This document shows, piece after piece, positions 19,788 to 23,678 of a stretch of 42,462 nt of DNA. The notes under the pieces are model-generated. The model was not told where the DNA came from. It saw only the letters and a program-made list of their open reading frames with translations, and did no database searches. The DNA lies in NCBI GenBank assembly GCA_013373595.1, contig JABXHO010000147.1:1-42462 (forward strand), read 5' to 3'. Positions within the stretch are counted from its first letter, which is position 1. Every line of letters begins with the position of its first letter. A program made the position numbers and the translations under genes. This DNA comes from Flavobacteriales bacterium (GTDB lineage Bacteria > Bacteroidota > Bacteroidia > Flavobacteriales_D > Crocinitomicaceae).

Positions 19788-22700
19788 ATGAAAAAATACC
19801 TTATTTATATTGTCTGTGCGCTTGCCTCATATACGAGTGTAGCGCAAAAGGAGTTTCGTTTCCGAAATTTCAGCATCAATGATGGACTTTCTCAGAGTTC
19901 TGTAACTGCTATTGTTCAAGACGAAAGCAATACCCTGTGGGTGGGAACACAAGATGGACTCAACCGTTTTGATGGTAGAACTTTCGAGGTGATTTCGGCA
20001 GATGGAACGGATGGACTTGAAAGTTCTTACATCAAGTGTGCGCTTGTTGATCAGAAAGGAAACTTGTGGTTTGGAACAAATAACGGTCTTACGTACTACG
20101 ATCGACAAACCGAACAATTTCAAACCTTCTTTGTAAAGAAAGGAGAAGTCATTCAAATTGAAGACTTAGCGCTTTGCATGGACGGAAATTTATGGGTGGC
20201 ATCAAGTGAAAATGGTCTTTACCGTTTTAATACGCGTTCGTTTCAGTTTACAAGCTTTCGTTCGCAAATACCGTCGAGAAAAACAACGCACGTAAAAGTT
20301 ACCGATAAAGGAATTGTTATCGTAGCGATGGCAGGCGGAGGTTTGTACTTTTACAATTCCGAAAAAGATACAGGCGTTGAAATTAGCGCTTATCAAACGC
20401 CATTTTCTTCGGTAAATCGGCTCATTTTACGAGGTGATAACGAACTACTTGTTGCTACAAACAGTGGTGTTTTTCGAGTTGACATTCAAAAAAAGTCCAT
20501 TCACGATCAATTTCCGAATCTTTTCAAGGAAATAGGAAAAATGGCGATCGCTGATGTGTACAAATATCCCGATCTCGGTTGGGTAATTGCCACAAAAAAT
20601 CAGGGAATGTACCTTCTGAATAAAGATGGAAATATTCATCACAGTACGGAAGACATCTTTCAAAAAACATCCATTCTAACCAACGCGATTAACTTCATTT
20701 ATCGTGATAATTCCGGTTACGTTTGGCTTGCCTCGCAAAGAGGATTGTCCGTGTTTGATCCGAATAAAGAGGAGTTCATGGGCGTAGGACCAAGCGGAAA
20801 TGAGGAAACAGGAATTCCCGCGCCAAGTGTGTGGAGTTTTGCTGAAAGTCCTTCTGCTCGTTACATGTACATCGGAACAGATGAGGGAATTTCTCGCTAT
20901 GATTCAAAAACACGAAAATTCCATCAGTTTTATCGAACTGAAAGAGCGGCTACCAACAATAATGAGATTTCTGTACTCGGTATTTTGCCAGTGAGCGATC
21001 GCAAAATTTTGGTAGCATGTACAGATGGTGCCTTTGAGTTGAATATATCAACGGAGGGATATGCCTACCAAAAGATCAAATATCCGTCAAAAGAGGTGGA
21101 GCAAATGCACCAGCGGTCGTATTCGCTGCTTCATTTGGAGGGGACATCATACCTGATCACCACCAAAGAGGGTGCACTTGTGTATGACATTGAGTCGAAA
21201 AAAATGGAGGTGTTTACGCACAACTCGCGCAAACCAAAAACAACGATTTCTGCAGGAATTTGTCGTTTGGCATTTAAAGATAACAAGGGAAAAATTTGGC
21301 TCACCACCAGTACAGGTGGATTGAATGTGATGGAAAAGAAGGCGGAAAGCTGGGTCATTCATCCGTATGCGTACAACAAACAAATAAAGGCGGCTTCAAG
21401 AGATTACGTTACGTGTATGTATCATACAAACGACGGACATTATTGGTTAGGAACCTTTGGATCTGGTTTACTTCATTGGAATGAGAAAACAAAGAAAGTA
21501 GTTGTCTACAACCAAAAAGACGGCTTACCCAATGATGTTATTTATGGTTTGCTTGCCGATAAAAAAGGAAATTTTTGGTTGAGTACGAACAAAGGATTGT
21601 GTCAATTCAATGCAAAAACAAAGAGGGTCCGAAATTATACGGAAACGCATGGTTTATTAAGCAATGAATTCAATAGTGGTGCGTATTTGTTGTCGTCAAC
21701 GGGAAAAATGTATTTCGGTGGAATCTTTGGGTATACGTATTTCCATCCAGATGAAATTTCTAAGCCGAAACAGGCAATTAGCGTAACGTTCACGAAATTT
21801 AAATTGGAAAATGACTGGCTCAAACCGAAAGCAAACAGTATCCTTACACAACCCATTTCGGAAACATCAGAAATAGAATTATCGTACGAAAAAAGAAGTT
21901 TTACCCTTCGTTTTCAGCCTTCAGATTTAGCTCATCCAGAATTGGTGAATTACAAATATGAACTGGAAGGATCGGATGAAGGTGAAATTTTGTTGGGAGC
22001 AGATAATGAAATTCATTTTAATGCCTTGGCACCAGGAAAATATGTGCTCAAAGTATATGCGCGATTGAATGACGGTCCGTGGAGCATTTATCCCGCGACG
22101 CTTACCATTCACGTTGGTGCCCCATTTTGGCAAACCTTGTGGTTTTGGTTGATTGTGGCTGTTATTGCATTAATCATTATTCGTTGGTTTGTGCGCAGAA
22201 GAATTGATTCAGCGCGACGTGAACAAGTTCGCTTGGAAATGAAAATTCACGATCGAACACGCGAAATTCAAGAACAAAACATCAAAATTGACGAGCAGAG
22301 AAAGAAAATCGAAGAAGAGAAAAACAAGGTTGTTCGTCAGCAAAAATTGCTACAGATCGAGAAAGATAAAACAGAAAAGCTCCTCCAAAATGTGATTCCT
22401 GCCTCTACGGCGGAAGAGTTGAAAAAACGTGGAAAAGCGAGGGCCCGTGCCTACACGAAAGTATCGGTATTGTTCACAGACTTTGTTGGGTTTACCAAGA
22501 TTTCGGACCGAATGAAACCAACGGAACTCGTTAAGAAGTTGGACGTTTACTTTACCAAGTTTGATGAAATCATCGTAAATAACAACCTCGAGAAAATCAA
22601 AACGATTGGTGATGCGTACATGTGTGCCGGAGGTGTTCCTGTGCGTAACAATACCAACCCAATTGATACGTGTTTGGCGGCACTTGAAATTCAAGCCTAC

Positions 22701-23678
22701 ATGGAAAAACGCAAAAATGATGCGATTGCCAACGGTAGAGAATATTGGGAGTTGCGTTTGGGCATCAATACAGGAGAAGTAACGGCAGGAGTGATCGGTA
22801 GTGAGCGTTTGGCGTACGATATCTGGGGAGCAACGGTTAATCAAGCACAGCGAATGGAAATGCTGGGTGAGCCCGGAAAAATTACCATTTCAGGATCTAC
22901 CTTCCAATTGATTGAACCGTATTTTGAATGTACATTCAAGGGAAAAGCACAGTCGAAAAGCCGTGGGTTGATCGATATGTATACCGTCGATCGTATTAAA
23001 CCTGAACTTTCGATTGGAGGAGAAGGAATTCGTCCCAACGAGCGCTTCAACCAGATTGTGAACCTGCACTTGTACAGTTCGATCAATTACTACAAAGCAG
23101 AGAGACACATTATTCAGTTGCTCGAAAAACGCTTATCGAAGAACTTGCATTATCACAGTATCGCACACACGAAAGATGTTGTTTCAGCTGTTGAACGTAT
23201 CGCCTTATTAGAAGGAGTAACCGATGAGGGATTGTTTTTATTGAAATCGGCAGCAACGTATCACGATGCAGGGTTTATCGAACAGTATGATAAAAACGAG
23301 CCCATTGGTGTGCGCTTAGCAGGTGAAATTCTACCGAAATACGGTTATACAGATGTTCATATCGACCGAATCAAAGAGTTGATCTATGTGACGGAGATTC
23401 CCCATAAGCCGAAAAACCTTCTCGAAGAAATCATTTGTGATGCCGATTTGGATTATCTCGGGCGCGATGACTTCCATGAAATTGCAGACAAGCTCCGACG
23501 TGAGCTCAAAGAGCATGGAAAGATTGAAAGCGATCGCCAATGGGACGAGATTCAAGTGGTGTTCCTCAAAAAGCATAAATACTTCACCAAAACGGCCATT
23601 AAAACGCGTAAGAAGAAGAAAAAACAAAACTTGAAGGAAGTACAAGAGCGTTTGGCAAAGAATGAATACAATGATTAA
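19788..23678 (+). CDS. Fusion sensor: periplasmic propeller - Y_Y_Y - TM - class III adenylyl cyclase - HD phosphohydrolase
   Basis: 1296 residues. Signal peptide 1-19; a two-component-regulator-type beta-propeller (~25-640) with repeated units such as SNTLWVGTQDGLNRFDG; a Y_Y_Y domain (~690-775); one membrane helix (~783-803, LWFWLIVAVIALIII); a signalling coiled coil (~805-875); a cyclase domain (~885-1075); and an HD domain (~1115-1260). Cyclase catalytic residues are complete: metal Asp898 (LFTDFVGFT) and Asp942 (IGDAYM), adenine-specifying Lys938 and Asp1011 (YDIWG), Asn1018 and Arg1022. HD residues are His1121/1123/1127, His1159-Asp1160 (YHDAG) and Asp1218 (CDAD). In this propeller family the output is usually a histidine kinase; here it is a cyclase plus a possible phosphodiesterase. 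The ligand is unknown. Confidence 0.92.
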   Translation: MKKYLIYIVCALASYTSVAQKEFRFRNFSINDGLSQSSVTAIVQDESNTLWVGTQDGLNRFDGRTFEVISADGTDGLESSYIKCALVDQKGNLWFGTNNGLTYYDRQTEQFQTFFVKKGEVIQIEDLALCMDGNLWVASSENGLYRFNTRSFQFTSFRSQIPSRKTTHVKVTDKGIVIVAMAGGGLYFYNSEKDTGVEISAYQTPFSSVNRLILRGDNELLVATNSGVFRVDIQKKSIHDQFPNLFKEIGKMAIADVYKYPDLGWVIATKNQGMYLLNKDGNIHHSTEDIFQKTSILTNAINFIYRDNSGYVWLASQRGLSVFDPNKEEFMGVGPSGNEETGIPAPSVWSFAESPSARYMYIGTDEGISRYDSKTRKFHQFYRTERAATNNNEISVLGILPVSDRKILVACTDGAFELNISTEGYAYQKIKYPSKEVEQMHQRSYSLLHLEGTSYLITTKEGALVYDIESKKMEVFTHNSRKPKTTISAGICRLAFKDNKGKIWLTTSTGGLNVMEKKAESWVIHPYAYNKQIKAASRDYVTCMYHTNDGHYWLGTFGSGLLHWNEKTKKVVVYNQKDGLPNDVIYGLLADKKGNFWLSTNKGLCQFNAKTKRVRNYTETHGLLSNEFNSGAYLLSSTGKMYFGGIFGYTYFHPDEISKPKQAISVTFTKFKLENDWLKPKANSILTQPISETSEIELSYEKRSFTLRFQPSDLAHPELVNYKYELEGSDEGEILLGADNEIHFNALAPGKYVLKVYARLNDGPWSIYPATLTIHVGAPFWQTLWFWLIVAVIALIIIRWFVRRRIDSARREQVRLEMKIHDRTREIQEQNIKIDEQRKKIEEEKNKVVRQQKLLQIEKDKTEKLLQNVIPASTAEELKKRGKARARAYTKVSVLFTDFVGFTKISDRMKPTELVKKLDVYFTKFDEIIVNNNLEKIKTIGDAYMCAGGVPVRNNTNPIDTCLAALEIQAYMEKRKNDAIANGREYWELRLGINTGEVTAGVIGSERLAYDIWGATVNQAQRMEMLGEPGKITISGSTFQLIEPYFECTFKGKAQSKSRGLIDMYTVDRIKPELSIGGEGIRPNERFNQIVNLHLYSSINYYKAERHIIQLLEKRLSKNLHYHSIAHTKDVVSAVERIALLEGVTDEGLFLLKSAATYHDAGFIEQYDKNEPIGVRLAGEILPKYGYTDVHIDRIKELIYVTEIPHKPKNLLEEIICDADLDYLGRDDFHEIADKLRRELKEHGKIESDRQWDEIQVVFLKKHKYFTKTAIKTRKKKKKQNLKEVQERLAKNEYND

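Follow-up and report, generated by a model that had tools for sequence, protein, structure and literature searches.

A propeller-sensor cyclase fused to an HD domain in a Flavobacteriales bacterium and a possible, poorly known enzyme family acting on cyclic nucleotides

The window analysed here is a stretch of 42,462 nucleotides from a Flavobacteriales bacterium of the Crocinitomicaceae (GenBank assembly GCA_013373595.1, contig JABXHO010000147.1, positions 1 to 42,462, forward strand). It carries a gene (19788..23678, forward strand, as are all features given below for the window, ATG start) for a protein of 1296 residues, in which a periplasmic sensor, a class III nucleotide cyclase and an HD-type domain share a single chain. 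The window protein begins with a probable signal peptide (residues 1–20, 19788..19847), read by eye from MKKYLIYIVCALASYTSVAQ without a predictor, which is followed by a periplasmic β-propeller made up of Reg_prop repeats (approximately residues 25–700, 19860..21887; Pfam Reg_prop E-value 1.5e-25, PorZ-type propeller 1.2e-08) and a Y_Y_Y domain (residues 716–776, 21933..22115; Pfam 2.8e-13). A transmembrane helix (approximately residues 780–804, 22125..22199) coincides with the hydropathy maximum. The most hydrophobic segment of 19 residues begins at residue 784; it lies between the periplasmic part and the coiled coil, cyclase and tail. The coiled-coil signalling helix (approximately residues 808–870, 22209..22397), the end of which corresponds to helix 2–34 of the AlphaFold model and the remainder of which was read by eye, leads into the class III cyclase domain (residues 886–1067, 22443..22988) and the HD-type domain (approximately residues 1101–1291, 23088..23660). 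Pfam matches neither a histidine kinase nor a receiver or a DNA-binding domain in the window protein. The combination of a propeller/Y_Y_Y sensor, a class III cyclase and an HD domain in one chain had been claimed in a first-pass annotation of this DNA and is borne out: Pfam recognises the Reg_prop, Y_Y_Y and Guanylate_cyc parts, and the HD domain, which Pfam misses in the window protein itself, is recognised through its relatives and in the AlphaFold model.

The cyclase domain scores 152.1 bits against Pfam Guanylate_cyc (PF00211; cut-off 21.9, E-value 1.6e-44), and its best structural match is the bacterial adenylyl cyclase 5o5l (E-value 8.4e-20). Two metal-binding aspartates, an adenine-type lysine and aspartate and a transition-state asparagine and arginine are all present, at the positions that the first-pass annotation had assigned to them. 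Their conservation was followed in the best 80 of 169 cyclase-HD relatives found by a scan of genome contigs, which are hence close relatives of the window protein. Lys938, Asp942, Asp1011 and Asn1018 are kept in all 80 loci, Asp898 in 79 (with one gap) and Arg1022 in 77. Lys938 and Asp1011 are the adenine-type pair. AlphaFold models the cyclase-HD part with a predicted local distance difference test (pLDDT) score of 88.3. We infer that the cyclase is a homodimer, with ATP as its substrate and cyclic AMP (cAMP) as its product.

The HD domain of the window protein has no match in Pfam (including PF01966) or NCBIfam. The tail is assigned to this class because its relatives match the HD profile: PF01966 finds seven of the 10 members of alignment A1 at E-values of up to 10 (best 2.5e-8), and the HD domain of a paralogue in the same genome, which is 38% identical to that of the window protein, scores above the Pfam cut-off (32.4 vs 22 bits). 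The domain is further supported by alignments A1 and A3, by Foldseek and by an AlphaFold model of the HD domain alone (pLDDT 95.1), and both the H...HD...D residues and the all-helical fold of the HD superfamily are present. The putative active-site residues, i.e. His1123 and His1127 of an HxxxH motif (23154..23168), the HD pair His1159–Asp1160 (23262..23267), Glu1171, and Asp1218 and Asp1220 of a DAD motif (23439..23447), are each kept in 80/80 loci. Among 36 diverse and distinct HD frames (doubles removed), Tyr/Phe-His-x3-His and HDxG are found in all 36 and [CA]D[AS]D in 33.

In the 80 loci, cyclase and HD are always encoded in a single frame, and the sensor is part of it in 76; the remaining four reach contig ends. 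Complete frames (n = 70) are 1248–1418 residues long from stop to stop. The cyclase has a median identity of 0.81 and the HD domain one of 0.75 (76 loci each), so that the two are conserved to a similar degree; the sensor, at 0.43 (72 loci), is the least conserved part. The extracellular glycan that the first-pass annotation had named as the signal finds no support here. The survey of related genomes that it had called for did reveal the same architecture, mostly in records titled Fluviicola, Crocinitomicaceae or Flavobacteriales bins. In the stretch fetched around the gene, homologues of RNase R (54/80 loci), ferritin (61/80) and Usp (51/80) are recurrent neighbours, and therefore the gene seems to be vertically kept. 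A chance or truncated frame is ruled out by the full architecture in 76/80 related loci, and a rare oddity by the presence of HD relatives, not all of them fusions, in 209/299 genomes of the order at E-values of up to 0.001. A short form occurs in one genome of the same family (L122, 580–2166, forward strand), where a frame of 529 residues contains a transmembrane helix, the cyclase and the HD domain, and the propeller is absent from that frame.

The paralogue mentioned above (L002, 829–2520, reverse strand) is a receiver-cyclase-HD protein of 562 residues. The usual phosphoacceptor Asp of its receiver seems, by eye, to be replaced. The genome contains a third HD match besides these two proteins. 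Neither the paralogue nor the conservation of the whole architecture was part of the first-pass annotation. A CRP-type receptor, which that annotation had suggested seeking nearby, was not seen: the genome has 16 cyclic nucleoside monophosphate (cNMP)-binding matches, all of them on contigs other than that of the window. Class I and class II phosphodiesterases (PDEs; PF00233 and PF02112, respectively) and PycTM have no match in the genome, and the nine neighbours scanned are not PycTM or PycTIR effectors (PycTIR was not searched genome-wide).

Outside the window, the HD profile matched 138 of the 395 Bacteroidota genomes searched, some of them only near the E-value limit. The classification of frames and the neighbourhood counts below drew on part of a shortened list of these matches, with some frames of about 400 residues omitted. 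Among the matches listed, 118 distinct HD frames were classified as 41 lone HD domains, four cyclase-HD proteins, seven others and 66 fusions to PycTM (L139, L144, L146, L150 and 62 more), a share that comes from an uneven sample because some of the frames of about 400 residues were left out. According to PMC11224242, PycTM is a receptor and forms a pore in the membrane. Pfam confirmed it in 7/7 of the HD-PycTM proteins tested, and across Bacteroidota the HD domain is the N-terminal part of PycTM proteins, where it may time or limit the effector. In one locus (L219) HD and PycTM are two overlapping frames. The seven other frames comprise four of the YitT type (L127 confirmed by Pfam), two with TPR repeats, and one (L184) in which only the HD domain was detected. 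The TPR proteins L152 (875–3463, forward strand) and L153 (602–3241, reverse strand) are about 870 residues long and carry the HD domain at the C-terminus; a TIR domain suspected by eye at their N-termini was rejected, as Pfam finds no TIR at E-values of up to 0.001. L153 (seen also as L268) adjoins a cyclase frame.

The neighbourhood set consists of 116 loci with approximately 3 kb on each side of the HD domain. A separate class III cyclase frame is found nearby in 9/50 loci with lone HD domains, 6/10 of the others and 2/56 of the HD-PycTM loci. Of the loci without a PycTM fusion, 15/60 thus have a cyclase at a distance of about 3 kb or less. Random placement of the cyclase genes, given how many each genome contains, predicts 0.375 such loci. 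In a simulation of 200,000 runs the maximum was five such loci vs the 15 observed. Since genomes of the same genus are not independent, the count was also made by genus (11/38). All 15 neighbouring cyclases are also matched by Pfam Guanylate_cyc. In L246 two cyclases are followed by the HD, 37 bases apart, and in two genomes of one genus (L270, 229–3600, forward strand, and L272, 3027–6364, reverse strand) cyclase, PycTM and HD are consecutive on one strand, the cyclase and PycTM being confirmed by Pfam.

In a quick tree of 124 HD domains, in which 48 of the 121 inner branches have support below 80, the window protein falls into a clade of 30 (support 100) that contains eight domains fused to cyclases and 11 adjacent to one. 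Fusion to a cyclase takes two changes on this tree, with L151 separate from the rest, and thus represents two lineages; the paralogue L002 is among these fusions. Fusion to PycTM takes 15 changes by parsimony and at least five when counted by supported branches. Three kinds of link connect the HD family with cyclic mononucleotides: fusion to a cyclase, a separate cyclase nearby and fusion to PycTM.

More distant relatives of the HD domain (29–33% identity in the 15 rows listed) occur in large Erwinia, Dickeya and Pseudomonas phages. There are 21 such records (e.g. L284, 1438–2382, NC_061444.1), some of which represent the same phage twice, and they are annotated as phosphohydrolase, hydrolase or hypothetical protein. 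One may speculate that these phage proteins counter a cyclic-nucleotide defence.

The reading that we favour, with confidence evenly divided for and against it, is that the window protein is an adenylyl cyclase under the control of a sensor, with a cyclic-nucleotide hydrolase of its own in the same chain. The periplasmic propeller/Y_Y_Y part would sense a cue, and the signal, passing through the one transmembrane helix and the coiled coil, would determine how active the class III adenylyl cyclase, as a homodimer, is. At the C-terminus, the HD domain would act as a metal-dependent hydrolase of a cyclic mononucleotide, most likely cAMP. With synthesis and removal both set by one protein, a local or pulsed signal could be shaped. 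The notion that the protein both makes and destroys cAMP goes back to the first-pass annotation and gains independent support from the gene neighbourhoods and fusions; its second half, hydrolysis by the HD domain, and the coupling between the parts are what we infer. A broader and more tentative proposal, which we consider possible if somewhat doubtful, is that the HD domain belongs to an unnamed bacterial class of cyclic-mononucleotide hydrolases, which would serve Bacteroidota both in ordinary cAMP signalling, where it is fused to class III cyclases or lies next to them, and as an N-terminal brake or timer on PycTM membrane effectors of the Pycsar type, the fused receptor-cyclases having a retuned version with Asn in place of His at position 1170.

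Several observations weigh against the favoured reading. In 45 of the 60 unfused loci no cyclase frame lies within about 3 kb, and HD-PycTM loci have one in only two of 56; therefore, loci with a partner cyclase next to them are a minority. Of the 16 cNMP-binding proteins, eight were read, and none of these is a convincing cAMP receptor; a crude pattern for the phosphate-binding cassette of cAMP receptors was found in one of these eight (L010) and is unconvincing. The two remaining groups of observations, which concern residue 1170 and the affinities of the HD fold, each lead to an alternative explanation.

The HD ligands had been called intact in the first-pass annotation, and the His and Asp residues described above are indeed kept. 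Position 1170 (23295..23297), which that annotation did not mention, is different: a nearly invariant His, present in 115/116 unfused HD domains (the lone exception being Ala in L227), is replaced by Asn in 80/80 propeller-cyclase-HD loci and in nine of 10 aligned fused HD domains. Catalysis could therefore be altered or lost. Residue 1170 may be a second metal ligand, and the fused HD domain could therefore be retuned or regulatory. In the latter case it would not hydrolyse anything; it would bind a cyclic (or other) nucleotide and feedback-regulate the cyclase. The single fused domain that keeps His (L151) stems from the separate fusion. We nevertheless regard a non-hydrolysing HD domain as unlikely: the other putative metal-binding and catalytic residues (His1123, His1127, His1159, Asp1160, Glu1171 and Asp1218) are invariant in the same 80 loci, which would be unusual for a dead enzyme.

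The second alternative is that the HD domain is a YpgQ/YedJ-like hydrolase of nucleoside triphosphates (NTPs), deoxynucleoside triphosphates (dNTPs) or another nucleotide, which would lie with cyclases to control a nucleotide pool or clean up a product and have no part in cAMP removal. YpgQ is a nucleotide pyrophosphohydrolase with NTPs and dNTPs as its substrates. By sequence profile, the HD domain is closest to hydrolases of this kind: the nearest solved relatives (1.4e-8 to 3.6e-7) include 2pq7 (1.4e-8), YedJ (3.5e-7) and Lin1889, YpgQ itself (5dqv) follows at 1.5e-3, and class I PDEs are matched at 0.043 and weaker. Foldseek, run with the HD model, also puts 2pq7 at the top (E-value 1.1e-4). 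Its first 50 rows hold 47 class I cyclic-nucleotide PDEs, which count towards the favoured reading, and three HD hydrolases; the number of PDEs is inflated by the over-representation of PDE4D in the PDB. The PDE matches are weak (E-values of 1.7e-3 and weaker, template modelling (TM) scores of 0.50–0.64, root mean square deviations of 5–8 Å), and the complex of YpgQ with ADP (5dqw, rank 20) exceeds every listed PDE in target-normalised TM-score (0.67). Pfam PDEase_I (PF00233) does not match the window protein. An NTPase would, however, not account for why the family recurs with cyclases and with a cyclic-pyrimidine effector domain. The Tyr/Phe-His-x3-His motif, furthermore, is PDE-like. On balance, we consider this explanation rather improbable.

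The last alternative, in which the product of the cyclase is cUMP, cCMP or cGMP and the protein belongs to a Pycsar-like defence or stress system, is suggested by a match to the PADLOC PycC model (2.1e-11, which may reflect plain kinship among class III cyclases) and by the fusion of PycTM to the HD family elsewhere, but is very improbable given the adenine-type pair Lys938/Asp1011, the lack of PycTM in the genome and the kept RNase R and ferritin neighbours, which are unlike those of a mobile defence island.

The sensor-controlled cyclase with its own hydrolase would offer a single protein in which to study how synthesis and breakdown work against each other when a periplasmic sensor governs them. 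The possible new hydrolase family behind this fusion is of greater interest than the single window protein. A class III cyclase is present in 47 of the 53 Bacteroidota genomes with an HD domain that were checked. The class I PDE profile found no protein above its cut-off in 247 Bacteroidota genomes; its one match, below the cut-off, was an HD-PycTM protein (E-value 1.9e-4 when the genomes were searched and 7.3e-4 when the protein itself was scanned). With its links to cyclases on the one hand and to an antiviral effector domain on the other, the HD family could explain how Bacteroidota remove cyclic mononucleotides, and HD-PycTM proteins would then have a role that can be tested.

No propeller-cyclase-HD protein or HD-PycTM enzyme was found in the titles and abstract openings listed by searches of an open-access library, which does not prove absence, and the available parts of PMC1183210 and PMC12265719 describe no such protein. 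Among known systems, HD hydrolases of the YedJ/YpgQ type (2pq7, 3gw7, 5dqw) are the nearest solved relatives of the window HD domain in sequence and fold. We know of no fusion or linkage of these hydrolases to cyclases. Class I PDEs such as PDE4 and PDE5 share with it the HxxxH...HD...D order and perhaps, to judge by weak matches, the fold. Unlike them, the window HD domain is shorter, has Phe1163 at the place of the second His of the HDxxH motif that is typical of class I PDEs, and has no PDEase_I match.

Propeller-Y_Y_Y sensors are known from the hybrid two-component systems of Bacteroidota, and the window protein has the same type of sensor and the same topology. Unlike in these systems, its output is a cyclase-HD module in place of kinase, receiver and DNA-binding domains. 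With Pycsar it is connected through the PycTM proteins of other genomes, which carry the same HD family, although neither the protein nor its genome contains PycTM. The closest parallel in design is CAPE of basal plants, in which a class III cyclase shares its chain with a PDE (PMC5159850), the PDE being reported as an N-terminal class I enzyme (PMC8115329) and having two essential histidines, His199 and His203 (PMC5159850). Unlike in CAPE, the window HD domain is C-terminal, belongs to a different, bacterial family and is joined by a periplasmic sensor; the spacing of its HxxxH motif equals that of His199 and His203 in CAPE.

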